Shown in pieces: positions 14,434-59,656 of a stretch of DNA of 64,000 nucleotides. A program made the position numbers and the translations under genes. The stretch's first letter is position 1. Every line of letters starts with the position of its first letter. This DNA comes from an uncultured Bacteroidia bacterium (GTDB taxonomy: Bacteria > Bacteroidota > Bacteroidia > Bacteroidales > UBA932): contig CACZXH010000009.1 in the NCBI GenBank assembly GCA_902785065.1, forward strand, positions 1 to 64,000, written 5' to 3'. Below the pieces are notes generated by a model that was not told the origin of the DNA, ran no database searches, and saw only the letters and a program-made list of their open reading frames with translations.

Positions 14434-14441
14434 CAAAATTA
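14434..14441 (-). promoter_or_regulatory. -7 element of the GH20-like operon
   Basis: TAATTTTG on the minus strand, a TAnnTTTG match, 21 nt before ATG 14412. There is no TTG at the -33 position; the phased TTAA array of 14456-14518 begins 15 bp upstream. Confidence 0.6.
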
Positions 14442-14455
14442 GTGAATAATCTTTA

Positions 14456-14518
14456 TTAATAAAACCTTAAATCGGCCGTTAAGGGCCCCGTTAACCCCAA
14501 AAGGAAGCGCGCCGTTAA
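14456..14518. promoter_or_regulatory. Phased TTAA repeat array in the divergent GH20-like/CotH region
   Basis: TTAA cores begin at 14456, 14467, 14479, 14491 and 14515, spaced 11, 12, 12 and 24 bp. Three are in the context CCGTTAA (14476-14482, 14488-14494, 14512-14518). Measured from the -7 element of the CotH gene the cores lie 12, 36, 48, 60 and 71 bp upstream. The layout suggests an activator operator serving one or both divergent promoters. Confidence 0.6.
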
Positions 14519-14529
14519 GTCCGAAAAAC

Positions 14530-14537
14530 TATCTTTG
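14530..14537 (+). promoter_or_regulatory. -7 element of the CotH gene (possibly leaderless)
   Basis: TATCTTTG, an exact match, ends 4 nt before the ATG at 14542, so the transcript would begin at or next to the start codon. No -33 TTG is present at the expected position. Confidence 0.65.
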
Positions 14538-14541
14538 CACC

Positions 14542-16227
14542 ATGAAGCTTCACCTGGGATATCGCCTCCTTCTCCTGACAGGAATCCTCCTCCTCCCGGT
14601 TTCCTGCCGGGAGGAACAGATTGTCCCGGAAAGCAAGCCATCCACGCCCCCTTCTTTCCTGGAAATGGTCCAGGCCTACCGGGACGGAAAGACCTACACG
14701 GAGACCCGCACCCTGACCACCTTTTCGAAAGTCTTCTTCCAGGACGGAAGCAGTGTCGTCGTTCCGACGGCGGAATGGGTCATCGAGGACGGGACGGACA
14801 CCCTTTCCTACGTGCCGAAAACAGTCATCCGGCAGGGAACGAACTGGTTTATCGACGGGGAAGACACCGGCATCGAGCGGACGAACGGCCCGCTGGAGGA
14901 AAGCGTCCCCCTCTATGCCTACCGTAACCTGAAATACCTGAGAATCTGGGCCTCCAACGGCGAGACGATGGAATTCGACAACGGCTGGGAGCCCGAAAAA
15001 CCCGAGGATCCCGTGGATCCGCCCAAACCACCGTACATCGACCCGCTGCACGACAAAGTCATCCCTTCGAACTTCCGGATTCCGACGGTCCATATCAGCA
15101 CGGAAGGCGGAAAGCCCATCGACAGCAAGGAGGATTATGTCAAAGCATCCTTCCGGTTCGAAGACCCGACCCGTTTCTATTCCGACGAGGAGACCGTGGA
15201 GGTGACCGGCAAGATCAGGGGTCGGGGAAACTCGACCTGGGGTATGCCCAAGAAGCCCTACCGCATCAAGCTGGACGAAAAGGTCGACCTCTTCGGCTCC
15301 CCGGGCAACAAGGACTGGATCCTGCTGGCCAACTACAGCGACAAGACCCTCCTGCGGAACATCGTCGCCATGGAAATCTCCCGCATTTGCGGGATGGCCT
15401 GGACCCCGCGGATGCTCAGCGTGGACGTATACCTCAACCAGGAGTACATCGGCGTTTATACCTTCTGCGACCACAAGGAAGTCGCCAAGGACCGGGTGAA
15501 TATCGAAGTGGCCACGGAAACCGACCTCGAGGGCGGCTATTACCTGGAGCTCGAAGAGGCGATGGACGAGCCCGTCTGCTTCAAGACCGTCTGGGACACA
15601 CCTGTCATGTTCCACGAGCCGGAGTACCCGACCGAAGCCCAGCAGAAGTATGTCAAGGAGTGGTTCAATGGCTTCGAACGCGCCCTGGAAAGAGTCCAGG
15701 GCGAGCACGACGATGCCTACCGGTCCTACATCGACGTCCCTTCCTTCATCAACTACTACATCATCCAGGAAATCACCAAGAACCCGGACGGAAACGTCCG
15801 CAAGAGCACTTACCTGACCAAGGAAAAAGGGAAACCGCTGGAGATGTATCACGTGTGGGACTTCGACATCACCCTCGGGAACTGCGACTACACGAACTTC
15901 GAGAAGCCCGAAGGCTGGCAGATGCGCTACGTGAAGTGGTACAACCAAATGTTCTTCGACCCGGCGTTCAAGAAAGCCGTCGTGGACCGCTGGAACGAGC
16001 TCTACCCCACCCTCCTGACCCAGGTCACCGCCTTCCTGGACCGGCAGCACGCCCTGATGGCCGGCGCCGAAACCCGGAACTTCGACCGCTGGCAGATCCT
16101 GGGCGTGAAGGTCTGGCCCAATTACTACTACTTCCCCACCTACGAGGAAGAATATGCGTTCTTGAAGGAATTCTATGAAGCCCGCCTCGCCTGGCTGAAC
16201 GAGCGGATCAACAGCAGTGACTATTAG
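14542..16227 (+). CDS. CotH-kinase family lipoprotein
   Basis: A 561-residue lipoprotein (lipobox LPVSC, Cys22). Residues about 40-150 form a DUF4988-like N-terminal region (VFFQDGSSVVVP, then IWASNGETMEF), and a Pro-rich linker follows (PEKPEDPVDPPKPP). The CotH domain (about 175-555) shows GRGNSTWGMPKKPYRIKL (227-244), NYSDKTLLRN, EYIGVYTFCDH and VWDFDITLGN. CotH-type proteins phosphorylate protein or are found on carbohydrate-binding surface proteins; a role on the cell surface fits the lipoprotein anchor. The last codon overlaps the convergent regulator gene at 16224-16227. Confidence 0.9.
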   Translation: MKLHLGYRLLLLTGILLLPVSCREEQIVPESKPSTPPSFLEMVQAYRDGKTYTETRTLTTFSKVFFQDGSSVVVPTAEWVIEDGTDTLSYVPKTVIRQGTNWFIDGEDTGIERTNGPLEESVPLYAYRNLKYLRIWASNGETMEFDNGWEPEKPEDPVDPPKPPYIDPLHDKVIPSNFRIPTVHISTEGGKPIDSKEDYVKASFRFEDPTRFYSDEETVEVTGKIRGRGNSTWGMPKKPYRIKLDEKVDLFGSPGNKDWILLANYSDKTLLRNIVAMEISRICGMAWTPRMLSVDVYLNQEYIGVYTFCDHKEVAKDRVNIEVATETDLEGGYYLELEEAMDEPVCFKTVWDTPVMFHEPEYPTEAQQKYVKEWFNGFERALERVQGEHDDAYRSYIDVPSFINYYIIQEITKNPDGNVRKSTYLTKEKGKPLEMYHVWDFDITLGNCDYTNFEKPEGWQMRYVKWYNQMFFDPAFKKAVVDRWNELYPTLLTQVTAFLDRQHALMAGAETRNFDRWQILGVKVWPNYYYFPTYEEEYAFLKEFYEARLAWLNERINSSDY

Positions 16228-23399: not shown

Positions 23400-25385
23400 T
23401 CAATAACCGTCGTTGCGCACGAGCTTGGGATTCTTGTTGATCTCGCCGCCGGGGATGGCCTCGTAGTAGTTGCGCTTGTCGAAAGACAGGCGGCGGCCAT
23501 ACACCTCCACTTCGTTGAGGAAGATGTACTTGTCCTCGTTCAGAACCTTGTACGGCATCAGGGTGCGCGGCCAGTAGTTGGACGCGAGGATGCTGTGGGC
23601 GGTGCGCCAGCGGCGCTGGTCCCACTCGCCCTGGTTCTCGATGCAGAGCTCGCGGCGACGCTCGTCCCGGATGTACTGGAGGTTCTCGTCCAGCGGGAAG
23701 CCGTAGAGTTCCTCGCCGATGTCGGCCGGGCTGGCCACCATTTCGTGCGGGTGGGCGCCGGCGCGGGCGCGGATTTCGTTCACATGTTCGAAGGCCTCGG
23801 CCTTGAGGGCGTTGTTCCCGGTCTCCAGGCCCAGCTCATACGCGGCCTCGGCCCAGTCCATGAGGATCTCGCCATAGCGGAAGACCTTCCAGCTCTGGGT
23901 GCTCTGGTGGAGCTGCCGCGTGGCGGGATCGGCCTTGTAGTTCATGTACTTGCGGACGAAGATGCCCGTGGTGGAGAAGCCTTCGTCGCCGTTGCGCTTG
24001 ATGCCGTTGACACCCGTGATCTTCACGTTGCCGAATCCGCCCACATCCTGGGTCTTGCCCGGGTCCTGGAGCTTGATGCAGTTCGGCGCCACGAAGTTGT
24101 TGTCCTCCGGGGTCAGGTCGGCCGCCTTGGCGGCGAGGGTGGTGAACACGCCCTGCTGGATGTCCAGCTTGGTACCGGAGACGGGCTCCACCATGCCGGA
24201 GAAGAAGAAGTTCGCGCGGCAGCGAGGCTCCATCTCGTCGGTGTTCCAGAAGTCGTCGTAGGAGTCGAAGCGGACGGGATAGCCGTCGGCGTCAACGACA
24301 GCCGGGGTCTCGTACAGGCTCACGAGGTCCCAGGTCGCATGGATGGCGGCACCCACGCTCTGGGCCATGCCGGTTCCCTTCGGGAGCACCATGTCGTCAT
24401 AGGAGCTGTACAGGGAGGAGTTCCACGGAACCACGGTGTTCGGAGTGCCGAAGGTCTTGACGAAGATGTCCTCTTCGCCGGCGAGGTCCTCAATGAAGAT
24501 CTCGGTGTAGGCCTTCTCCTTGTCGGCACCGGTGTGGAGCCTGAAGCCCGCATCGTGCAGGAACTTGCAGGCGTCGTAGGCATACTGGAAGAACTCCTTC
24601 GCATCGGCCGGGTCCATGCCCATCAGGCCCGCGTCGGTCGCGGGACCGGTGATGCCGGTGTACTGGTTGTACTTCGCCACGCAGCCCGCCCAGAGCATCG
24701 CCTTGGCCATCAGGGCTGCGGCGGCATAGCGGTTGCCCCGGTACACCTCGGACTTGTCGGCGGCGCCGTTGTCCATGGCGAACTTCAGGTCATCATAGAT
24801 GAACTTCCAGGTCTCGTACTCGGTGGCGCGGACCACCTGGAGTTCCTCCATCGGTGCGGTCGGATCCTGGACCTTGTCCACGATCGGCACGCCGCCGTAG
24901 CGCTTGGCCATCGCGAAATAGTAGTACGCGCGGATGAACCGGGCCTCGGCCATGAGTTCCTCATAGCGGTCGGCCGTCCAGGCCTCCTGGTAATCGGGAA
25001 GCTTGTCGATCATCACGTTGATCTCCCGGACGCGGTCATAGGGCCAGTAGCCCCACTGGCCGGCGGTGTCGCCGTTGCCGCGGCCCGTAGTCTCGTAGCA
25101 GATGGTGGATCCGTAACCCTTCAGGGCCTCCCAGACGTTGCCCCGGTGGTAGCCGCCGGCGTTCATCGTGGAGTAACCCTTGTCGTTATCGGCATATTTG
25201 TAGCAGAAATCTTCGATGGGCAGGTCGTTGTACACGCCTGCGAGGTACTTGCGGACACCGAACTCGGAACTGAACAGCGTTCCGTCATCCAGCATGCCCT
25301 TGGGCTCGAGGTCGAGCCGGTTGCAGGAGACCGCACCCAGGAGGAGGGCCGCCGCAAAAAGAATGGTTTTAAAGGTTGCTTTCAT
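23400..25385 (-). CDS. SusD/RagB-like nutrient-binding lipoprotein
   Basis: A 661-residue lipoprotein (GAVSC lipobox, followed by NRLDLEPKG). It has the SusD-like TPR scaffold with FIRAYYYFAMAKRYGGVPIVDK and the C-terminal RYGEILMDWAEAAYELG, VNEIRARAGAH and RDERRRELCIENQ motifs. It forms the lid over the SusC transporter and captures oligosaccharides at the surface. It is 12 nt downstream of susC in the same operon. Confidence 0.97.
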   Translation of the reverse strand: MKATFKTILFAAALLLGAVSCNRLDLEPKGMLDDGTLFSSEFGVRKYLAGVYNDLPIEDFCYKYADNDKGYSTMNAGGYHRGNVWEALKGYGSTICYETTGRGNGDTAGQWGYWPYDRVREINVMIDKLPDYQEAWTADRYEELMAEARFIRAYYYFAMAKRYGGVPIVDKVQDPTAPMEELQVVRATEYETWKFIYDDLKFAMDNGAADKSEVYRGNRYAAAALMAKAMLWAGCVAKYNQYTGITGPATDAGLMGMDPADAKEFFQYAYDACKFLHDAGFRLHTGADKEKAYTEIFIEDLAGEEDIFVKTFGTPNTVVPWNSSLYSSYDDMVLPKGTGMAQSVGAAIHATWDLVSLYETPAVVDADGYPVRFDSYDDFWNTDEMEPRCRANFFFSGMVEPVSGTKLDIQQGVFTTLAAKAADLTPEDNNFVAPNCIKLQDPGKTQDVGGFGNVKITGVNGIKRNGDEGFSTTGIFVRKYMNYKADPATRQLHQSTQSWKVFRYGEILMDWAEAAYELGLETGNNALKAEAFEHVNEIRARAGAHPHEMVASPADIGEELYGFPLDENLQYIRDERRRELCIENQGEWDQRRWRTAHSILASNYWPRTLMPYKVLNEDKYIFLNEVEVYGRRLSFDKRNYYEAIPGGEINKNPKLVRNDGY

Positions 25386-25397
25386 CTTACGCTGTCT

Positions 25398-28300
25398 TTA
25401 GAATTTGAGGGAGGCGCCCACGTTGACGGTCCGGTTCACGGGGTAGTTGTAGTTCAGCACCACATTGCCGTTGGCCGCGCCGCCGTTGGTACCCGGACGC
25501 TCCGGGTCCATGTACTTGTCCTTGCAGAAGGTGAGGAGGTTATAGCCGCTCACATAGATGCGGAGGCTCTTGACATTCACCACGCGGGTCCACTTGTACG
25601 GAAGCGTGTAGCCCAGCTCCAGCGACTTCAGGCGGAGGTAGGACATGTCCTTGATGCCCGTCGTGCCGGTGGTGAAGCTGTGGCTGGTGGCGGGATAGTA
25701 GCCCGCGACCCACTGGGTGTGGGGGTTCCACGGGTCATCCCACTGGTTCACGGTGTGCCAGCGGTCCAGGTACATGTCCAGGACGGCGCCGCCGTTGAAC
25801 GGGCCCACTTCCCCGAACACTTCGCCGTATTCGCTGTACACGCCGGCGGAACCGGCCCAGTTCATGGAAAGGTCGAAGCCCTTCCAGTCCGCGCCGAGGG
25901 TGATACCGTAGTTGAACACCGGGAGGTTGTAGGTGGCCACCGGATGGGAGTCGTTGCCGTCCACCACGCCGTCGCCGTTCCAGTCCTCATAGTAGTAGTC
26001 GCCCGGGAGGGTGCCGGTGCCGTAGTTGGTGCCGGTGGTCGGGTGGTTCTGGATCTCGTCATAGGTGGTGAAGCGTCCGGCCTCCGGGATGGAGAACCAG
26101 ATGTCCTTGTTACGGCCGGAGACCGCGCCGCGGCGCCAGTTCTCCATGGAGTTGCCCGCCTGGGAATCCAGGTGGTAGTTCCAGCGGTTCTTGGCGGCGG
26201 ACATGAAGCCCGTGATGTAGTAGCCGACTTCGCCCACGCGGTTGCGGTGGCTCAGCTGGAACTCGTAGCCGAAGGTGATGTCGCTTTCGATGTTCTCCTG
26301 CGGCATGGAGGCGCCCACGGTGCCCGGAAGCACGACGGAGGACGTCGCGAGCAGGCCGTCGCGGTTGCGCTGGAACACCTCGAAGGTTCCGCCTAGCTTC
26401 TGGTTCCAGAAGTTGAAGTCCAGACCCAGGTTCTTGGTGGTGGCAGTGTACCAGGTGAGGTTCGGGTTCGGGATGGCGGCGGCGTCGACACCGGTCACGA
26501 CCGTGCCGTTGTAGACCCACGCCTTGTTGCCCTGCAGGTTGTAGCCCGTGTAGATGGACGGGTACGTACCGGCGGAGCCATCGTCTCCCAACTTACCCCA
26601 GGATGCACGGAACTTGAGGTTGGTGACCCACGGGAGGTTGTTCTTGATGAAGCCTTCCTCGCTGATGCGCCAGCCCACGGAAACCGACGGGAACCAGCCC
26701 CAGCGGCTTGCGGCCGGGAAGCGGGAGGAAGCGTCATGACGGATGGCGGCGTCCAGCAGATACTTACCCTTGTAGTCATAATTCAAATGGCCGATCCACG
26801 CCCGGCGGGACATATCGCCGAGGCCGTTGGACTTGCCCACCTGGTTCTCCTCCTCACCGGAGAACAGGTACGGCTTGTCCAGCATCATCGTGCGGCGGGC
26901 GTAGAAGTTGTCCCACTCGTTGTAGGACTGCTCGTACATGCCCATCAGCGCGATGTGGTGCGCCTTCGCGAAGGTGTGGTCGTAGTTGATGGACAGCTGC
27001 ATCACCTGGCCGCTGTTCGGGTCGGTGGAGCGCTGCACGTAGGAATCGTCACCGCCGTTGCGGATGAACTTGTTCAGGGAGCCGTCCGCGTTCTTGGAGA
27101 ACAGGTAGTAGGTCCGCTGGTACTCCGTGTTGTTGGTGGTGTAGTAGTCGTAGCTGTAGAAGGCGCGGAGGTTCAGGCCCTCGACGTACGGGATGTCATA
27201 GGTGAGGGTCATCGCGGCGTTCAGGTTGTTCCGCTTCTCCTGGCGGAAGCCGGAGAAACGGCTGTCGGTCGCGGCGACCGGGTTCTCGGACTCGAGCATC
27301 TGGTCGTCGAAGCTCGGGAGCTCGTGGTCCCCGTCGATCCAGGCCTCGGAGGTAGGACGGTAGGTCCACGCCTTCTTGTACACGGCCCAAATGGTCGTGA
27401 ACGGCTGGTTCTTCTCGTCCATGTAGCCGGACAGGGCGACGTTGGCACGCAGGCGGTCGGTGATCTTCGCATCCACGTTGGAACGGAAGTTCCAGCGGTG
27501 GTAGTTCAGGGAGCCGCTGCGGTAGGAGCCCATCATATCCATGTAACCGAGGTTGAAGAAATACTTGATCTTCTCCGAACCGCCGTTGACGGACAGGTTG
27601 TACTGGCTCTGCGGGACGTTGTTCTTGAACAGTTCGTCACTCCAGATGGTGCTCTTGCGGGTGCCGTCGCTGTAGGACATGATGGTGTCCCAGGCATAAA
27701 TGCCGAGGCCCCGGTTCGGGTAGTTGCCGTTGAACCCGTTGTAGTTCTTCTCGTTGATGAGCATCATGTGGGAAGCGGCGTCCACCGTGTTCGGGACATA
27801 CAGGAAGGTCTGCCAGCCGTAGTTCATGGACAGGTCGATGTCGAACTTGCCGTCGTCGCCGGAGCCCTTTCGGGTGGTCACGAGGATGACGCCGTTCGCG
27901 GCCCGCACACCGTAGATGGCGGCGGAGGCATCCTTCAGTACGGACACGGATTCGATTTCGTTGGCGTCCATGCGGGAGAAGTAGGCCTGGTCGCGCGGAA
28001 TGCCATCCACCACGAACAGCGGGGTGCCCATGCCGCGGATGTCGATCGCGTTGTCGAATTCGCCCGGCTGCGCGGAGCGCTGGGAGATGCGGACGCCGGC
28101 GACCTTACCGGACAACATGTTCACGACGTTCTCGTTCTTGGTGATGACCATCTCCTTGTTGGTGACGGCCGAAACCGCACCGGTGAGGGTGGCCTTCTTC
28201 TGGACACCGTAACCGACGACGACCGTCTCTTCCAGGAAATTGGCATCGTCACGGAGGACGACGTCGATGGGAGTCTGCGCGGCGGACACCACCTCATCGG

Positions 28301-28538
28301 TGTAGCCGATGAAGGAGACGACGAGATTGTCGCGCGTGGAGGCGGCGATCTCGAAGCGTCCGGCCGCGTCGGTCATCGTGCCGCGGGTGGTACCCTGCAC
28401 GATGACGCTGGCGCCGACGAGCGGTTCACCGCCCCCGTCCCGGACCGTACCCCTCACGGTACGGTCCTGGGCGGACAGGGACAGCGTCAGCAGCGCCGTC
28501 AGCACGGTCAGGATAATATGTGAAAGTTTCAATTTCAT
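25398..28538 (-). CDS. SusC/RagA-like TonB-dependent transporter
   Basis: A 1046-residue outer-membrane transporter. A signal peptide (ending SLSA-Q) is followed by a carboxypeptidase-D-like regulatory domain (VRGTVRDGGGEPLVGASV), a TonB box region (EETVVVGYGVQKKATLTGAV), a plug domain (GKVAGVRI, IDIRGMGTPLFVVDGIP, VSVLKDASAAIYGVRAANGVILVTTRKG, the SusC signature) and a long beta-barrel ending in aromatic-rich GASLKF. It imports oligosaccharides with SusD using TonB energy. It lies 52 nt after the leading lipoprotein gene; that gap contains a hairpin. Confidence 0.97.
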   Translation of the reverse strand: MKLKLSHIILTVLTALLTLSLSAQDRTVRGTVRDGGGEPLVGASVIVQGTTRGTMTDAAGRFEIAASTRDNLVVSFIGYTDEVVSAAQTPIDVVLRDDANFLEETVVVGYGVQKKATLTGAVSAVTNKEMVITKNENVVNMLSGKVAGVRISQRSAQPGEFDNAIDIRGMGTPLFVVDGIPRDQAYFSRMDANEIESVSVLKDASAAIYGVRAANGVILVTTRKGSGDDGKFDIDLSMNYGWQTFLYVPNTVDAASHMMLINEKNYNGFNGNYPNRGLGIYAWDTIMSYSDGTRKSTIWSDELFKNNVPQSQYNLSVNGGSEKIKYFFNLGYMDMMGSYRSGSLNYHRWNFRSNVDAKITDRLRANVALSGYMDEKNQPFTTIWAVYKKAWTYRPTSEAWIDGDHELPSFDDQMLESENPVAATDSRFSGFRQEKRNNLNAAMTLTYDIPYVEGLNLRAFYSYDYYTTNNTEYQRTYYLFSKNADGSLNKFIRNGGDDSYVQRSTDPNSGQVMQLSINYDHTFAKAHHIALMGMYEQSYNEWDNFYARRTMMLDKPYLFSGEEENQVGKSNGLGDMSRRAWIGHLNYDYKGKYLLDAAIRHDASSRFPAASRWGWFPSVSVGWRISEEGFIKNNLPWVTNLKFRASWGKLGDDGSAGTYPSIYTGYNLQGNKAWVYNGTVVTGVDAAAIPNPNLTWYTATTKNLGLDFNFWNQKLGGTFEVFQRNRDGLLATSSVVLPGTVGASMPQENIESDITFGYEFQLSHRNRVGEVGYYITGFMSAAKNRWNYHLDSQAGNSMENWRRGAVSGRNKDIWFSIPEAGRFTTYDEIQNHPTTGTNYGTGTLPGDYYYEDWNGDGVVDGNDSHPVATYNLPVFNYGITLGADWKGFDLSMNWAGSAGVYSEYGEVFGEVGPFNGGAVLDMYLDRWHTVNQWDDPWNPHTQWVAGYYPATSHSFTTGTTGIKDMSYLRLKSLELGYTLPYKWTRVVNVKSLRIYVSGYNLLTFCKDKYMDPERPGTNGGAANGNVVLNYNYPVNRTVNVGASLKF

Positions 28539-28590: not shown

Positions 28591-30327
28591 CTACCGAGGG
28601 GACGGGTCGACGGCGCCGTCCGGAGCGAGGCGGCGGTTGAAGAAGACGTACGCGGTGTGCCAGCCGCCGATACGGATCTGGCCGTAGTCGTACTCGTAGC
28701 GGAGGCCGACGCCGAAGCGGAAGCCGGTACCGGTGTAGTTGGCGCCGGTGGTGAAGCAGCAGGCGGGCTCGTCGAAGCCGAAGTCGAGGGTGCCGGCCGC
28801 GTCGAAGGCATTGCCATCCCATCCACCGATGATTTCACCGTTGCATTCCACGCCGTAGGCGGCCTTCACGGCATCCTTCTGCTCCTGAGTGAGGTTGTCA
28901 CGCTGGGAGGAGACGATGGAAGGCTGCGTACTCTGGAGCCAGATGCCGCGGCTGTGGCGGGCAAGCTTCTGGCCGAGTTCGCCGAGTTCGAGCTTGGAAC
29001 CGTCGGAGTAGACGATATCGCCGGGCTCGTTGACGGTGATGGACATCTCCTGGATCCACTTGATCGCCTTCGGGGCGTCGCCGTGCTGGAACCAGAGGTA
29101 GTCGTTCTCCTCGCCCGGGGTGGCCTTCATCCACAGGTCGATGAAGGAGATGCGGTTGGCGCCCGCGGGCACCATCGTGCGGTACTCCATGTGCTGGGCC
29201 TCCGGGAAGTCGGGGCTGTAGTGGATGTCGCCGTAGGTGGCGTCATCGTCGCGGCCGAAGGAGGCGAAAGCGGTGCGGATCGGGTCGTTGATGGTCCAGA
29301 AGACCTTGTTCTTGATCTGGTCATTGACCTTGCAGTAGACATAGATGCCATCCTTTTCAGGATCGTAGCAGCTGGTGCCCGGACGGGTGTTCATCGTCCA
29401 GGTGCCGTCGGCGGCGAGGCAGTTCCGGAACATATCGTAGCGGGAGGCCACCTGGCCGTTCTGGAGCTCGGCCGGAGCGAGTTCGAAGGTCACGGTGCCG
29501 GCGGGGAGGTCCTTGTAGAGGTCCTTGAAGTTGAAAGTGCCCAGGAAGTCGGCCTTGGCGTCCGGGAGCTGGGCGCGATAGCTGTCACCCACCTCGGCGG
29601 CGGTCACCTCGTCGATGAAGTGCGGGGTCTCGAGGGCCTCGGGCTCGAAGGTGTTCTCACCCACGTGGACGATGAAATAGTTGGAGCTGATCGCGGTGCC
29701 CTTGAGTTCCACTTTCAGGGCGACGGTGTAATCCTTGTTGGACTCGGCGGCGAGGGCCTTCAGGTTCACCTTGATGAGGTCGCCGTCGTTCGTGGCGGAC
29801 TCCACCTTGAAGAGGCCGGAGCCGGCGCGCGTCTTCGCTTCACGCGCGTCCGCGATGTCGAAGGTTGCCTCGGAGGCGTTGAAGGAAGGCGTGGCGAGGA
29901 AATTGACCACGGCGCCCTCTTCCCCGAGGAAGACGATCTGGTCGGTGTACTCCGGAACATAGACGATGGAGTTGATGGCCGCGGAGGAAACCTTCGGGAT
30001 GGTGTAGGAGGTGCTGTTCACGGTGATGATGAACGCATCGGCCGTCTCCTCGACGGAAACGGCGGCGCCGCCACCGCCCTTGGTGTCGATGACGATGGAC
30101 TTGCCGTCGCTCAGGACGATGGTCCACACACCGTCGGCCTGGTTGGCGCTGGTGATGGTGAGGCCCGTCACGACCGCATTCTGGAGGTCCTTCTGGGTCT
30201 GGTGCCAGGCACCTTCCAAGACTTCTACCCGACGGGTAAGGTCGTCAAGTCCCTGGTTGTCGCAGGCGACGAAGGCGGGAACGGCCATGGCTCCGATGAG
30301 GAGCACGCTGATGAAGTGTTTTTTCAT
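28591..30327 (-). CDS. DUF4988-type lipoprotein leading the susCD operon
   Basis: A 578-residue lipoprotein (PAFVAC lipobox). The N terminus has a short coiled coil (DDLTRRVEVLEGAWHQTQKDL) followed by a beta region with VWTIVLSDGKSIVID, the DUF4988 signature also found in the proteins at 41917 and 43208. The remainder is beta-rich, with no catalytic motif recognised. A surface glycan-binding role is inferred from location as first gene before susC. It is read from a -7 element at 30386 behind a phased TTAA array. Confidence 0.78.
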   Translation of the reverse strand: MKKHFISVLLIGAMAVPAFVACDNQGLDDLTRRVEVLEGAWHQTQKDLQNAVVTGLTITSANQADGVWTIVLSDGKSIVIDTKGGGGAAVSVEETADAFIITVNSTSYTIPKVSSAAINSIVYVPEYTDQIVFLGEEGAVVNFLATPSFNASEATFDIADAREAKTRAGSGLFKVESATNDGDLIKVNLKALAAESNKDYTVALKVELKGTAISSNYFIVHVGENTFEPEALETPHFIDEVTAAEVGDSYRAQLPDAKADFLGTFNFKDLYKDLPAGTVTFELAPAELQNGQVASRYDMFRNCLAADGTWTMNTRPGTSCYDPEKDGIYVYCKVNDQIKNKVFWTINDPIRTAFASFGRDDDATYGDIHYSPDFPEAQHMEYRTMVPAGANRISFIDLWMKATPGEENDYLWFQHGDAPKAIKWIQEMSITVNEPGDIVYSDGSKLELGELGQKLARHSRGIWLQSTQPSIVSSQRDNLTQEQKDAVKAAYGVECNGEIIGGWDGNAFDAAGTLDFGFDEPACCFTTGANYTGTGFRFGVGLRYEYDYGQIRIGGWHTAYVFFNRRLAPDGAVDPSPR

Positions 30328-30385: not shown

Positions 30386-30393
30386 CAAATATG
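30386..30393 (-). promoter_or_regulatory. -7 element of the susCD operon
   Basis: CATATTTG on the minus strand, one mismatch to TAnnTTTG; the leader would be about 52 nt. No TTG at -33; the first TTAA core begins 12 bp upstream. Confidence 0.5.
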
Positions 30394-30404: not shown

Positions 30405-30467
30405 TTAAAAACGGGCGGAACCCGTGCTTAATCCGGCCCTTAACATGACGTTTTAATGTTTTTTTAA
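30405..30467 (-). promoter_or_regulatory. Phased TTAA repeat array upstream of the susCD operon
   Basis: TTAA cores begin at 30405, 30428, 30440, 30453 and 30464 (spacings 23, 12, 13, 11). They lie 12, 35, 47, 60 and 71 bp upstream of the -7 element, almost the register found before the CotH gene (12, 36, 48, 60, 71). On the transcribed-sense strand several read TTAAGG(G) or TTAAGC. Confidence 0.6.
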
Positions 30468-36529: not shown

Positions 36530-39268
36530 TTAATTGACGGGTCGGGTCAGGATGCCGGGCTGGTAGATACCGTCGTCGAACCGGCTGAAGGACAACGGGG
36601 TGACGTCGGTGCAGGGAACGCCGGCGTTCAGCAGCAGCTTGTGCAGGGTATTCCATCCCTTCTCGGAGGAAAGGAAGTCGTCCAGGGTGCTTACATAGCG
36701 GTTTCCGTTCTTCACGAACACCGGCAGCGGCGCAGTACATTCATATTCGCTGCGCAGCAGGGAGGCGGTCTTCATCTCCTCCGCCCGCTTGTTCCAGCGG
36801 CGCCAGTCAGTCCGGCAGGCCTCCACGAGCACTTCCCCCTCCTCCACGAATGGACCGGAGAGCGTATATTTCGCGGCATCCTGCCGCTGCACTTCACAGA
36901 AATAGAAATCAGCGTTGGTCATTCCCCGCGTCCAGGAACGCTGTGCGGGCAGGAAAGAAGAACGGCGAAGCGGGGTCAGGACAATGTCCAGTCCATACGC
37001 GACGGCGGTTTCCGGGGTTACACCCCAGTACCAGACATCGGAGCCGTCAGCGGGCGGGAGTGCGCCGGAAGCGGCGTCCACGATGTACAGCGTCCGTCCT
37101 TTCGGCTTGTCCGACAGAACGACGCCCTGCGAGAGCAGGATCCTCCGCACGCGCGCGTCCGGAGCCCCCCAACATACCACACTCTGATAGGGCTCCGGAG
37201 CCGCTTTATCAACCAACTTAACCTTATGAGTTTCTTGTTCTTCCCAGCGGCACCAGGCGCTGCCTTCGGGGGCGTTCGCCGCCCGCATCGCGTCGTACAG
37301 CGGCCACGGGTCCCACAGCGGAAGGGCCGGGTCGTAGCCGGGGTTGAAGGTGGTCCCGTAGGGGCCCAGCCGCTCCGGCTGGACGCCCGGGACCCCTTCC
37401 TCGTACGGGCCGAAGAAGATGCCGTCCTCCAGCGTAGGGGCCGTGGTGAGGTCCTTCTTCCCCAGCGGAAGGGGTTTCAGGGCGTACCACGCCATGTTGA
37501 AGACCGTGCTGTAGGAAGCACCCGCTTCCCGCATGGACTTGATCAGGTGACAGGCTTCGTAGGCCAGGCCTTCCATCCGCCCCTCGGCGGACTCGTAGGC
37601 CCGGTCGCCGTTGTACTTCGAGACTTCCTCCGGCGTGCCGTAGTAGGCCATGCTGTGCTCGCCGACGCCCCAGGGCTTGCCGATGGCTTTCCATTCACGC
37701 ATGGACCCGGCGTCGCCGTAATGGCCTACGGTCACCGGCAGGATGCCGGAGCCGTCCTCCTCCCCGTCTGAGGAGATCCAGGGCCGGGACGGGTCGTTCT
37801 CCCGGACGATGGCCGTCCAGTCGCGCCAGGCCTGCTCCTGGAGCGGCATCAGGTCCGGCCGGTGATGGACATGCAGGATGACGGGCTTGTTCTCGTTGGA
37901 CACGCTCCAGCCGAAGACGGAGGCGTGGTTCCGGTCCCGGAGCACCATCCGCCGGAGGTGGTCCTTGGAGTGCTCCCAGAACAGCGGGTTTTCCAGGGCG
38001 GGACCGCCGTCGCTGGCCCAGTTCGCCGTCTCCGCCAGGACGCAGATGCCCATCTCATCAGCCAGGTCCAGATAGAAGCGGGGATAAACCTGCGCATGGG
38101 GCCGGACGGCGTTGCCGTTCATGCCTTTGATAGCCAGGTACCAGGCCCACGCATAGCGGCGGGTGAGCTGCGGGATGCCCATGAAATGCCAGGAATCGCC
38201 CCGGAGCGGATACGGCTCCCCGTTCAGGCACAGCATGCCGTCGCGGAGGGTCCACTCCCGCCAGCCGAAGCGTTCGTATTTGTTGTCGATGGTCTTCTTC
38301 CCCTGCGTCAGCGACAGCTGAAGGGCGTACAGGTCGGGATGCTCCGGGGTCCAGGTCTTGAGGTCCGCCGGGATGCGGAGGGTTTGCGTCAGGGTGTCGC
38401 CGGCAGGGACCGAGAGCTTCACCGCCGGAATGTCCAGCGCCTTCTCGCCCAGTTCCCACGCTGGTATGGGGGCCTCCTGCACCGTCTTACCTGAACGGTT
38501 CAACCAACCATGAACCCGGCCCGCGAGCTGGACGGATGCTTTCCGGACACCGTCATTCCGTAATCGGACCTTTATTTCCAGGAGACCCTCCGCTACCAGG
38601 GGGTGGATATACACGTCGTCGATGCGCACTGCCGGGCGGCGCAGCAGGTACACGTCCTGCCAGATGCCGTCGATGTAGGAGCCCCACATCGACCCGGCCG
38701 GCACAATCCGGCGGCCGACGCCGGAGTGGTCTTCGAACTGCTTCTGGGATTGGACGAACACGCGGACATCGGCCTCCTCCCCGGGACGGACGACGTCGGT
38801 GACATCGGCCTCGAACGGGAGGAAAAGGTCGAAGTTCTCCGCCACTTTCTCCCCGTTCACGAAGACCTGCGTCTTCCCGGCGACGGCCTCGAAATGCAGG
38901 AAGATCCGGTCTCCCGCCCAATCGGCCGGGACCCGGACCGTCCGTTGCATCCAAGCCTCGCGGACGCTGTTCCAAGCGGCCGGATAGGATGGGTAATCGC
39001 GGTGGTCGGGCCCTTCCAGGCCGTTCCAGGCGAAGCCGTTCACGTTCCACGGAGAAGGAATCCTGATGCGGACCGCATCCCAATTCCCCCGGTCCTCCGC
39101 CCCGGCCCGGAACTGCCAGTAGCCATTGAGGCAGATCTCGTCCCGGTACGGCTTTTCCAGGCGGTTCGTCAGCCCCTCGGAAGGGGCGAAGCGGCCCGGG
39201 AACCGGACGCCGGCCCCGAGGAGGGCGGCGTGGAGTCCGACGAGGAAAAGCAAGAGGGTCCGTTTCAT
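36530..39268 (-). CDS. GH2-family glycoside hydrolase
   Basis: A 912-residue secreted protein (signal peptide ending LLGAG). It shows the GH2 N-terminal jelly roll (LNGYWQFRAG, WMQRTVRVPADW, HFEAVAGKTQVFVNGEKV), an immunoglobulin-like middle domain and a TIM barrel with YPLRGDSWHF, MNGNAVRPHAQVYPRFYLDLADEMGI and the acid/base motif FGWSVSNEN. The nucleophile is expected in the WGVGEHSMAYY region (Glu). The substrate could be a beta-galactoside, beta-mannoside or glucuronide; unresolved. It is the first gene of the GH2/GH43/GH92/GH31 operon. Confidence 0.87.
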   Translation of the reverse strand: MKRTLLLFLVGLHAALLGAGVRFPGRFAPSEGLTNRLEKPYRDEICLNGYWQFRAGAEDRGNWDAVRIRIPSPWNVNGFAWNGLEGPDHRDYPSYPAAWNSVREAWMQRTVRVPADWAGDRIFLHFEAVAGKTQVFVNGEKVAENFDLFLPFEADVTDVVRPGEEADVRVFVQSQKQFEDHSGVGRRIVPAGSMWGSYIDGIWQDVYLLRRPAVRIDDVYIHPLVAEGLLEIKVRLRNDGVRKASVQLAGRVHGWLNRSGKTVQEAPIPAWELGEKALDIPAVKLSVPAGDTLTQTLRIPADLKTWTPEHPDLYALQLSLTQGKKTIDNKYERFGWREWTLRDGMLCLNGEPYPLRGDSWHFMGIPQLTRRYAWAWYLAIKGMNGNAVRPHAQVYPRFYLDLADEMGICVLAETANWASDGGPALENPLFWEHSKDHLRRMVLRDRNHASVFGWSVSNENKPVILHVHHRPDLMPLQEQAWRDWTAIVRENDPSRPWISSDGEEDGSGILPVTVGHYGDAGSMREWKAIGKPWGVGEHSMAYYGTPEEVSKYNGDRAYESAEGRMEGLAYEACHLIKSMREAGASYSTVFNMAWYALKPLPLGKKDLTTAPTLEDGIFFGPYEEGVPGVQPERLGPYGTTFNPGYDPALPLWDPWPLYDAMRAANAPEGSAWCRWEEQETHKVKLVDKAAPEPYQSVVCWGAPDARVRRILLSQGVVLSDKPKGRTLYIVDAASGALPPADGSDVWYWGVTPETAVAYGLDIVLTPLRRSSFLPAQRSWTRGMTNADFYFCEVQRQDAAKYTLSGPFVEEGEVLVEACRTDWRRWNKRAEEMKTASLLRSEYECTAPLPVFVKNGNRYVSTLDDFLSSEKGWNTLHKLLLNAGVPCTDVTPLSFSRFDDGIYQPGILTRPVN

Positions 39269-39287: not shown

Positions 39288-39295
39288 CAAAATTA
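39288..39295 (-). promoter_or_regulatory. -7 element of the GH2 operon
   Basis: TAATTTTG on the minus strand, a TAnnTTTG match, 19 nt before the ATG at 39268. No TTG at -33. Confidence 0.6.
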
Positions 39296-39318: not shown

Positions 39319-39354
39319 TTAATGGATGATTAACCGACCTTAAAAAAGACTTAA
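39319..39354 (-). promoter_or_regulatory. Phased TTAA repeat array upstream of the GH2 operon
   Basis: TTAA cores begin at 39319, 39330, 39340 and 39351 (spacings 11, 10, 11), that is 24, 35, 45 and 56 bp upstream of the -7 element. On the sense strand the two distal copies read TTTTTAAGTC and TTTTAAGGTC. The array lies between the stop of the OmpA-like gene and the GH2 promoter. Confidence 0.6.
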
Positions 39355-57532: not shown

Positions 57533-58828
57533 ATGAAGAAGAAAACGATCCTGCGCATCGTTCTGGCGGTGCTCGCGGCCGCTGTCCTCGGCGGCTGCCT
57601 CTACCTGAATTCCCTGCTGCCCATCATCACGGGCTATGCGGCCAAGAACCTTGCGTCGGACGTTTTCGTCTCCGGGCGGGAACCCTTCTCCTTCATCAAG
57701 TTCACCAGCAACAAGGTGGACTTCGGGAACAAAACGGTGACGAGCCGCTTCCTCTGGGGCAAGTCCGTCGCCGCCTATCGGGACGGTTACGGCGTCACGC
57801 TGCTCCGCGGCAAGAAGGCCGCGGAATTCCAGGCGGAGAAGTATCCCCTCGCCCCTGAGGCCGAAGGACCGGACTTCCTGGAACCCGGAGACTCCGCCCT
57901 CACGGAGCGGCTGGCGCCCATCGCCAAGGCCCTGGTCGATGACCACGCCTACAACGGAACGCCCTTCGCCTTCGTCGTCCTGCATGAAGGCAAAATAGTG
58001 GCTGAGCGGTATCGCGAAGGCCTGTCGGCCCGTACACGGCTCCTCAGCTGGAGCATGGCCAAGAGCTTCACGAACGCCCTCGCGGGCATCATGTACGGTG
58101 ACGGCCTGGTGGATGTCTTCGCCCCCACAGGCATACCCGAGTGGCAGGGGGATGAACGCGCGACCATCACGCTCAATGACCTGATGCAGATGCAGAGCGG
58201 CCTCGAATGGAACGAGGACTACGGCAACCGGTCCGATGTGAACCTGATGCTGCACCGGGAAAAAGACATGGGCCTGTTCGCCCTGAAGAAACCCCTGGAG
58301 CACAAGCCCGGCACCTTCTGGTACTACTCCAGCGGCAGTACAAACATCGTCATGCGCTACCTGCGCGGCAAGTTCGCTTCCGACAAGGAGTTCCTGACCT
58401 ATTACCGCGAGCGGCTCTTCGCCCCGCTGGGCATCCGCAATGCGGTTTTCGAGCCGGATATTAGCGGCACCCCGGTAGGATCGTCCTACCTGTACATCAC
58501 CGCCCGTGAATACGCCAGCCTCGGGCAGCTATACCTGGATGACGGCGTCTTCCAGGGCCGGCGGATCCTCCCCGAAGGCTGGGTGGACTACTGTGTCACC
58601 CCCGCCGCCGACAGCAAGGACGGCTACGGCTCTTTCTTCTGGCTGAACAAGGACAAGTTCTGGCCGGACATTCCCGAGGACATGTTCAACTGCCAGGGTC
58701 ACGACGGCCAGGAAGTCTTCATTATCCCCTCCAAGGACCTGGTCGTAGTTGTCCTGGGCTATTCCCCGAAACCCGACCGGGTTATCGACTGGAACGCCCT
58801 TGTCCGGGATATCATCGCCCAACTATAA
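57533..58828 (+). CDS. Membrane-anchored serine hydrolase (beta-lactamase class C family)
   Basis: A 431-residue protein with an N-terminal membrane anchor or lipoprotein signal (VLGGC). The penicillin-binding fold (about 115-430) shows SWSMAKSF (S-x-x-K nucleophile), the YYSSGS motif at the YxN position and CQGHDGQEVFI near the place of the KTG box. These proteins are esterases, amidases or peptidases rather than true beta-lactamases. The gene is 31 nt after nagB and its last six bases overlap the convergent hydrolase gene. Confidence 0.88.
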   Translation: MKKKTILRIVLAVLAAAVLGGCLYLNSLLPIITGYAAKNLASDVFVSGREPFSFIKFTSNKVDFGNKTVTSRFLWGKSVAAYRDGYGVTLLRGKKAAEFQAEKYPLAPEAEGPDFLEPGDSALTERLAPIAKALVDDHAYNGTPFAFVVLHEGKIVAERYREGLSARTRLLSWSMAKSFTNALAGIMYGDGLVDVFAPTGIPEWQGDERATITLNDLMQMQSGLEWNEDYGNRSDVNLMLHREKDMGLFALKKPLEHKPGTFWYYSSGSTNIVMRYLRGKFASDKEFLTYYRERLFAPLGIRNAVFEPDISGTPVGSSYLYITAREYASLGQLYLDDGVFQGRRILPEGWVDYCVTPAADSKDGYGSFFWLNKDKFWPDIPEDMFNCQGHDGQEVFIIPSKDLVVVVLGYSPKPDRVIDWNALVRDIIAQL

Positions 58829-59572
58829 CCGCTCCGGCCTGGCCAGGAAGCGCACGATGGTGTCGCACGGGCTGAGCGAATGCGGATGGTGTCCGATACC
58901 GGTCTTGCCGATGATGGACAGGTCCCGGCAGCCGGACAGGTCGAACGTCCCGAACTGCTGTTCGAAAGGGACGGTCGGATCGGCGGCGCCGTATACGACG
59001 ATGATGGGCACGCCCTTGACCCGGGCGAAATGGTCCTTGGCATAGGTCCGGAACTTCTCTTCCGGGATACCTGCCGCTTCCCACTGCTCAGCGGCTTTCC
59101 GGATATGCTCATTGCGGATATTCGTCAGGACGCAAAGGGGCGCGTCCAAATAGAGCTTATCCACGCGGTCCGGATGGTTCTCCGCATAGACGAGGGAGAA
59201 CCAGCCACCCCGGCTCAGGCCTTCCAGGACCACTTTCCTAGACAAACCATACCGCTTTCGCCCATAATCGCAAAACGCCGTAAAGGCCTCCTGTGCGTCG
59301 GGCGCAGCATACTCGTCCATCAGGTCCAACAGGCCGAACGACCAGCCCAATTCCAGCAGCGCATCGTCCACCTGCGCGAACGCGCCGATGAACGCCGGTC
59401 GGGCGATCCAGCGCCCGTTCGCCTCCTTCGGCACGACGAACACGGCCCTGCGGCCGCAGATCACGGTATCCTGGACGGTGAAGCCCCGGTCGGCATACGG
59501 CTGCTCCCAGGACTGGGCGGAGACGGTGCTGCTCACCAGCAGCAACGAAAAAAGGAGGCGGAACGCTTTCAT
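58823..59572 (-). CDS. Secreted alpha/beta hydrolase
   Basis: From ATG 59572, 249 residues with signal peptide (ending STVSA-Q); an in-frame GTG at 59590 lies in the -7 element and is rejected. Nucleophile elbow LEGLSRGGWFS, acid candidate VVYGAADPTVPF and His in GIGHHPHS complete a triad. The fold resembles prolyl-oligopeptidase-like or acyl esterases. It is read from TATCTTTG at 59590 behind a TTAA array, the same promoter design as the GH2 operon, hinting at co-regulation with glycan use. Confidence 0.82.
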   Translation of the reverse strand: MKAFRLLFSLLLVSSTVSAQSWEQPYADRGFTVQDTVICGRRAVFVVPKEANGRWIARPAFIGAFAQVDDALLELGWSFGLLDLMDEYAAPDAQEAFTAFCDYGRKRYGLSRKVVLEGLSRGGWFSLVYAENHPDRVDKLYLDAPLCVLTNIRNEHIRKAAEQWEAAGIPEEKFRTYAKDHFARVKGVPIIVVYGAADPTVPFEQQFGTFDLSGCRDLSIIGKTGIGHHPHSLSPCDTIVRFLARPERL

Positions 59573-59589
59573 GGTGAACTTGTTTCCCA

Positions 59590-59597
59590 CAAAGATA
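59590..59597 (-). promoter_or_regulatory. -7 element of the alpha/beta hydrolase gene
   Basis: TATCTTTG on the minus strand, exact, 17 nt before ATG 59572; no TTG at -33. Confidence 0.6.
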
Positions 59598-59620: not shown

Positions 59621-59656
59621 TTAATTCCCGCTATCGCGGGATTAAAAAAGCCTTAA
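59621..59656 (-). promoter_or_regulatory. TTAA repeat array upstream of the alpha/beta hydrolase gene
   Basis: TTAA cores begin at 59621, 59642 and 59653, that is 24, 45 and 56 bp upstream of the -7 element, identical to three of the four positions before the GH2 operon. A 6-bp hairpin (TCCCGC 59626-59631 / GCGGGA 59636-59641) lies between the first two, so part of the pattern may be structural. Confidence 0.45.

Follow-up and report, generated by a model that had tools for sequence, protein, structure and literature searches.

TTAA ladders phased on the -7 box at three promoters of a Bacteroidales PUL: a probable activator operator

The PUL and its three ladders

The window analysed here comprises the first 64,000 nucleotides of contig CACZXH010000009.1 (assembly GCA_902785065.1), from an uncultured Bacteroidales bacterium. 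Between about 13.3 and 39.3 kb, a Pfam scan returned PUL-like gene content, namely GH20, CotH, GH43, DUF3823, SusD, SusC, a 578-aa gene, GH31, GH92, another GH43 and GH2, along with weak GH99-like matches below the cut-off. On the minus strand, the 578-aa gene (28591 to 30327), whose sole Pfam match was a weak DUF4988 below the cut-off, comes first in an operon with the genes for a SusC-like TonB-dependent receptor (25398 to 28538) and a SusD-like protein (23400 to 25385). A CotH kinase-like protein is encoded on the plus strand (14542 to 16227), and the GH2 gene (36530 to 39268, minus strand) heads a same-strand run of GH2, GH43, GH92 and GH31.

Ahead of the 578-aa gene lies a ladder of five TTAA words (30405 to 30467, minus strand; words at 30405-30408, 30428-30431, 30440-30443, 30453-30456 and 30464-30467). 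Its -7 box, CATATTTG (30386 to 30393, minus strand), differs from TAnnTTTG at one position, and the TTTG is invariant in five lineages. If the gap is counted as the number of bases between a word and the -7 box, the five words lie at gaps of 11, 34, 46, 59 and 70. The CotH promoter carries a second ladder (14456 to 14518, plus strand), with words starting at 14456, 14467, 14479, 14491 and 14515 and gaps of 70, 59, 47, 35 and 11 to the box TATCTTTG (14530 to 14537, plus strand). At both promoters the outermost words start 59 bp apart. The positions given for these two arrays in an earlier note on this DNA were correct, its figures each being larger by 1 through a counting convention. That note had placed the first array at the promoter of the susCD operon, where it is indeed found, with the amendment that the 578-aa gene precedes susC and susD.

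A third ladder, which the earlier note did not contain, stands ahead of the GH2 operon (39319 to 39354, minus strand; words starting at 39319, 39330, 39340 and 39351). Its gaps to the box TAATTTTG (39288 to 39295, minus strand) are 23, 34, 44 and 55, and the slot at gap 11 has no TTAA. The three ladders thus head three transcription units of one PUL, and the susCD and CotH promoters, which had been called unrelated, are not.

Two other arrangements in the window deserve description. Facing the CotH ladder, the divergent GH20-like gene has a possible -7 box of its own, TAATTTTG (14434 to 14441, minus strand), from which the same words lie at gaps of 14, 25, 37, 49 and 73. This gene may therefore use the CotH ladder with its box at gap 14 instead of 11, and the same layout is seen in the relatives G575 and G338. 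At 59621 to 59656, three TTAA words surround a GC hairpin at gaps of 23, 44 and 55 to a TATCTTTG box. This box overlaps the first codon of the ORF at 58823 to 59590 (minus strand), the start of which may be wrong. These words are probably a terminator hairpin plus chance.

Chance, conservation and phase

The register shared by the susCD and CotH promoters is not reproduced by shuffled DNA. When the two 80-bp regions were shuffled jointly with their dinucleotide composition kept, 0 of 40,000 trials matched at four or five positions and 2 matched at three. When five words per region were placed at random, all five agreed to within 1 bp in 11 of 200,000 placements. A period scan over the three window ladders gave a best period of 11.8 bp (R 0.846), a value reached in 0 of 20,000 random placements. 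Searching the whole 2.74-Mb genome for TTAAN{7,9}TTAAN{7,9}TTAA returned the susCD and CotH promoters only, against 4 matches for the backwards control (AATT); with N{5,8} spacers, the triple turned up at CotH, in the GH2 ladder and at a single further locus (C10:9122), the control giving 8. A looser pattern (N{6,9}, N{6,34}) matched 10 places on other contigs, and here the control matches (34 and 26) exceeded the real ones (13 and 15). Counts over 837,693 bases sampled from this genome are 410 for TTAA and three times as many, 1262, for AATT.

TTAA is also depleted between genes, with 202 occurrences against 322 +/- 15 in dinucleotide shuffles of 313 intergenic regions, as delimited by our own rough gene calls. 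Only 10 intergenic TTAA pairs lie 11-13 bp apart, and 8 of these come from the three arrays. Clusters of at least three words within 90 bp number 20 in the sample and are irregular outside the PUL.

Orthologs of the PUL were defined through the 578-aa gene, which was matched at E 1e-20 or better in 12 of the 399 other genomes of the genus. Six named records of uncultured Bacteroidales match it as well, among them RGIG6537 (sheep reticulum), UBA3289, RUG12703, RUG193 and RUG253; several of these records appear to be contigs already counted in the 12 genomes. The window, the 12 genomes and RGIG6537 together supply 14 susCD-side promoters, and the TTAA array is kept in all 14. The box could be scored in 13 of them, always at gap 11; in the remaining one, that of G301, TAATTTCA is visible by eye at gap 11.

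Within these arrays it is the words that are preserved. When the susCD promoter of the window was aligned with those of four diverged relatives, whose 578-aa proteins are 39-65% identical to that of the window, 20 of the 20 TTAA columns were invariant, as were 4 of the 8 box columns and 6 of the 58 remaining ones. A second susCD grouping gave 16/20 against 10/60 elsewhere, the aligner having shifted the two outer words by one base. For the CotH promoter, four close orthologs showed 20/20 invariant TTAA columns and 26/60 others. The seven GH2 orthologs gave 11/16 against 6/57, and G513 and G315 by themselves 12/12 against 36/68. With the words fixed in diverged orthologs while their flanks changed, the ladder is almost certainly a real operator, as the earlier note had suggested.

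The other two promoters are kept less evenly. GH2 was found in 12 genomes, and in 11 of these, all but G301, a ladder precedes it; the GH2 ladders of the close group have no TTAA at gap 11. Among the 11 genomes with a CotH match, six have the ladder ahead of the gene (the window, G406, G420, G575, G338 and, on its CotH side, G563, in which the gene start was unmatched), and it is absent in G301, G354, G513 and G315. G548 has a short TTAA run between GH2 and CotH. In G406, the CotH ladder is kept despite a different divergent neighbour. On contig C65 of G563 (about L127:15347-15408), a single ladder is flanked by two boxes, each at gap 11, one towards a GH43 gene and one towards CotH. CotH homologs from the wider family proved too distant; the three in the right orientation have no TTAA run near the gene.

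To describe the phase, 33 promoters were hand-picked from 35 TTAA runs. Three runs were dropped (window 59621, G513 26133 and G301 33808), and one G563 run was used in both directions. A box could be scored at 31 of the 33, and at these 31 every TTAA within 80 bp falls into bands at 11, 22-23, 33-35, 44-47, 55-59 and 68-70 bp, in a selection that favours close spacing, not phase to the box, and that represents about three independent promoter classes. At the other two, the susCD side of G301 and the GH31 promoter of G315 (TAAATTTA), the box was assigned by eye, also at gap 11. The GH20 boxes that face the CotH ladder stand apart in this respect, at gap 14. Slots are filled in different combinations: 1, 3, 4, 5 and 6 at susCD and CotH, 2, 3, 4 and 5 at GH2, and 1, 2, 3, 4 and 6 on the susCD side of G315. 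Spacing between words ranges from 10 to 13 bp, and exact 11-bp steps, seen on the susCD side of G315 and G513, cover only part of the ladder there. The proposal of sites at repeated helical turns can be kept as far as the fixed phase to the -7 box is concerned; since the pitch is about 11.8 bp and not 10.5, the sites lie only roughly on one face of the helix.

The phase was also tested independently across the genus. A ladder pattern with the proximal word at gap 11 gave 33 matches in 31 of 400 genomes (backwards control, 8), whereas the same pattern at gap 16, the one other gap tried, matched in 0 of 400 (control, 3). By our reading, the 33 matches comprise 13 at this PUL, 8 at promoters of phosphate transporters and 12 at other genes. 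A word in that place is rare at the ordinary promoters of the window's genome: around 173 TAnnTTTG boxes, PUL ladders excluded, 5 of the 58 TTAA within 80 bp are at gap 10-12. At five further loci, a recurring TTAA-rich promoter with irregular spacing was seen ahead of a secreted protein, which at one of them has carboxypeptidase-regulatory-like domains.

The housekeeping promoter motif of the Bacteroidetes consists of a TTG at -33 and TAnnTTTG at -7. No TTG is present at gap 17-23 in any of the 31 scored ladder promoters, susCD and CotH included, in agreement with what had been noted for those two. The accompanying statement that most of the other promoters it had checked do have one fared less evenly. 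Nine TAnnTTTG boxes were found upstream of the 12 window genes queried, and a TTG at gap 18-19 accompanies five of them (icd, the acyltransferase, the flippase, tRNA-Gln and the gene at 301) and none of the other four, which include the box upstream of tRNA-Met. In this genome, TTG is commonest at gap 19-20 (49 occurrences over the 173 sampled boxes). A missing TTG at about three independent promoters is poor evidence by itself, because only 54 of these boxes have one at gap 18-21 and about 119 do not.

What may read the ladder

In a set of 74 units, drawn from 17 of the 31 scored promoters, the positions next to TTAA reach at most 0.11 bit, and a flank-based motif search around the words returned nothing. 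Since the flanks are uninformative, the putative reader protein must see the palindromic four-base word only and would take its specificity from the number and spacing of words. Such a word, so spaced, would suit a chain of identical binding units.

The Pfam scan, which left out small ORFs, found no transcription regulator among 45 window genes; in relatives, it also covered 30 extra genes from the contigs that carry the PUL. Several candidates from those contigs were considered and rejected. An AraC-type gene lies beside CotH in G301, and its best match in the searched DNA of our genome is 27% over 262 aa. LacI-type, histidine kinase and HTCS (AraC-type hybrid two-component) genes occur on the PUL contigs of G354, G563 and G513, respectively, and the scan of the window saw none of these kinds.

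Elsewhere, this genome has 18 AraC-type domains, and several large regulator genes adjoin other susC genes. Among the less susC-linked ones is an HTCS at C1:78326, with full-length matches of 39-93% in 6 of the 12 PUL relatives (G575, G338, G539, G406, G521 and G301); in 13 genomes that lack the PUL, the best full-length match among those listed is 33% (G171). It did not fit well as the reader: in G420, which is 98% complete and keeps both PUL and ladder, it has no full-length match, the best being 38% over part of the protein. More generally, in a comparison of about 580 C-terminal residues, no HTCS of this genome reaches 50% at the 22 AraC-type places of G420 (best 47%). AraC-type genes with matches in G406 and G420 include C17:88837 (83 and 81%), C5:94045 (62 and 65%), C2:221500 (81 and 80%), C3:59462 (45 and 45%) and a 60-aa fragment at C35:14813 (80 and 79%). 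C44:10285 is matched at 76% in G420, and C37:23558 had no match in either comparison. Nothing links any of the genes matched in both relatives to the ladder. It is possible that the regulator gene is missing from the assembly, because the genome is 95% complete.

The ladder is very probably a regulatory switch of this sugar-degradation cluster. From its sequence and arrangement we infer binding by a protein, activation, a single shared regulator and a tandem oligomer. The three ladders would form the common operator of one PUL regulon and would act as a ruler with as many as six slots, spaced by about 11-12 bp, each filled slot a bare TTAA word and the whole phased on the housekeeping -7 box. 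If the -7 box is taken to be centred at -7, slots about 11, 22-23, 33-35, 44-47, 55-59 and 68-70 bp upstream of it would have their centres near -23, -35, -46, -58, -70 and -81. With that centring, the -33 element falls under slot 2, and slot 1 is just inside that element. Several copies of one activator could sit side by side on the ladder, the promoter-proximal copies where region 4 of sigma would touch -33, so that this contact would be replaced, as by PhoB at Pho boxes. With the glycan signal present, the susCD, CotH and GH2 units would then be turned on together. We put the probability that the ladder is an activator site taking the place of the -33 contact at roughly two in three. Of the earlier proposal to this effect, the operator, the fixed phase and the missing -33 TTG have held up; activator binding is the part that we deduce, and the search described above yielded no regulator.

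The same ladder could instead be a repressor operator, at which copies of a repressor block the polymerase until a glycan inducer arrives. The innermost TTAA does lie between -33 and -7, within the polymerase footprint, and conservation cannot tell an activator site from a repressor site. There is a precedent in the HTCS BT2391, described as repressing its PUL (PMC11253607). However, a -33 TTG is missing from all 31 scored promoters, which makes the core promoter appear weak and dependent on assistance, and SusR is described as an activator (PMC3878776). We regard repression as unlikely.

Another alternative arises from the phosphate-transporter promoters. In eight genomes of the genus, these have TTAA words at even 11-bp steps, phased like those of the PUL, and are divergent from a PhoB-type response regulator gene; the gap of 11 was imposed by the search pattern, and the word at 22 bp was not. 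Pfam gave PF00072 and PF00486 for one of the regulators, and PF02690 and PF01384 for two of the transporters. This phosphate ladder is likely a Pho box of the genus. In addition, two proteins of about 650 aa encoded in our genome, on contigs C8 and C13 (L208:12037-13995, minus strand; L209:5623-7578, plus strand), are single-chain fusions of a Na/Pi-cotransporter, a PhoU domain and a DNA-binding domain of the OmpR type. A protein of this kind seems, from its domains, to be a transporter carrying its own transcription factor.

The PUL ladder could thus be a direct-repeat site of the PhoB/OmpR type, which would place the PUL in a phosphate-linked regulon, perhaps read by these fusions of a Na/Pi-cotransporter, PhoU and a winged helix. 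Both the phosphate ladders beside PhoB-type regulator genes in eight relatives and the presence of the two fused transporters speak for it. Against it, the words at the phosphate promoters are mostly TTAAC in even 11-bp steps, whereas those of the PUL are followed by C in 10 of 74 units; the 200 bp upstream of both fusion genes contain no TTAA; and the PUL genes are without evident phosphate function. The phosphate-side PhoB-type regulator has no close match in our genome (best 32-35%). A phosphate-linked reading is improbable.

Less probable still is that no specific regulator is involved and that the ladder is a UP element, an array on which the alpha subunit of RNA polymerase docks. AT-rich words at about every helical turn upstream of a promoter do resemble UP elements. 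However, UP elements tolerate many A/T words, whereas here the word is always TTAA, in flanks that are uninformative and often GC-rich. Moreover, outside this PUL close triples occur at just one place in the genome, and the innermost word is downstream of -33. Last, duplication of a promoter within the PUL could have left ladders of similar register that serve no common function. This is hardly credible: the susCD and CotH registers are nearly identical and the word TTAAGGGCC is common to both in this genome, yet TTAA is fixed across lineages while the flanks diverged, the GH2 ladder has another register and the relatives fill the slots differently.

The activator reading could be extended into a more speculative form, which we consider doubtful. 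The reader may be an undescribed kind of regulator that recognizes bare palindromic TTAA and, as a chain whose pitch is flexible, lines up along a ruler anchored at the -7 box. This ruler might be general for activator-dependent promoters of this Bacteroidales genus, PULs and phosphate genes alike, possibly acting through transporters with their own DNA-binding domain. To our knowledge, little is known of how Bacteroidota promoters take activators in place of the -33 contact. The ladder offers a ruler from sequence alone, telling which slots count, what their phase is and which can stay vacant, and a dozen relatives supply natural variants. With it, the geometry of activation can be put to direct test at PUL promoters, and its signature could also help to find the regulator of the glycan cluster.

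Comparison with known systems

A search of titles and the beginnings of abstracts found no description of a TTAA-ladder operator. UP elements are A/T-rich tracts of variable sequence upstream of about -38; the ladder has a fixed word, uninformative flanks and one rung downstream of -33. The ladder promoters share the -7 box of the Bacteroidetes housekeeping promoter and differ from it in the missing -33 TTG (0/31 scored).

For the HTCS operators of Bacteroides PULs, PMC3878776 describes direct repeats spaced 21 bp on average. They too are sites at PUL promoters, and 21 bp corresponds to about two rungs of the ladder, in which pairs of rungs 21-25 bp apart can be found. However, there are four or five single rungs at each promoter, the rungs look equivalent and the slots interchangeable, and no HTCS is encoded among the window genes scanned. 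SusR sites are described in the same paper (PMC3878776) as repeats separated by 67 or 77 bp, the long spacer between them not being conserved. An organization across several helical turns, as at sus promoters, is common to both, but two sites at that distance are different from four or five TTAA words at about 11-12 bp or double that step. The outermost words of the ladder start 59 bp apart, not 67 or 77.

In geometry the ladder resembles the Pho box, the site of OmpR-family response regulators (PhoB/PhoP). In E. coli, the innermost unit of the Pho box is close upstream of the -10 element, and the activator replaces the -35 contact. The units are tandem repeats of 11 nt (PMC4415409). The ladder likewise has tandem units, the innermost close to the -7 box where the -33 contact would be: a TTAA is found at gap 11 at susCD and CotH, and no perfect one is there at the GH2 promoter of the window. 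Its steps vary from 10 to 13 bp, with a best period of 11.8 bp in the window, and slots may be empty. It stands ahead of PUL genes, and the scan of linked genes found no response regulator. Finally, the Pho box unit is asymmetric and conserved over about 7 bp, whereas in the ladder the unit is just the palindrome TTAA, with flanks that share no consensus (0.11 bit or less). Because the asymmetric conserved unit, a defining feature of the Pho box, is absent, we do not file the ladder as one, although by analogy it would work like one.
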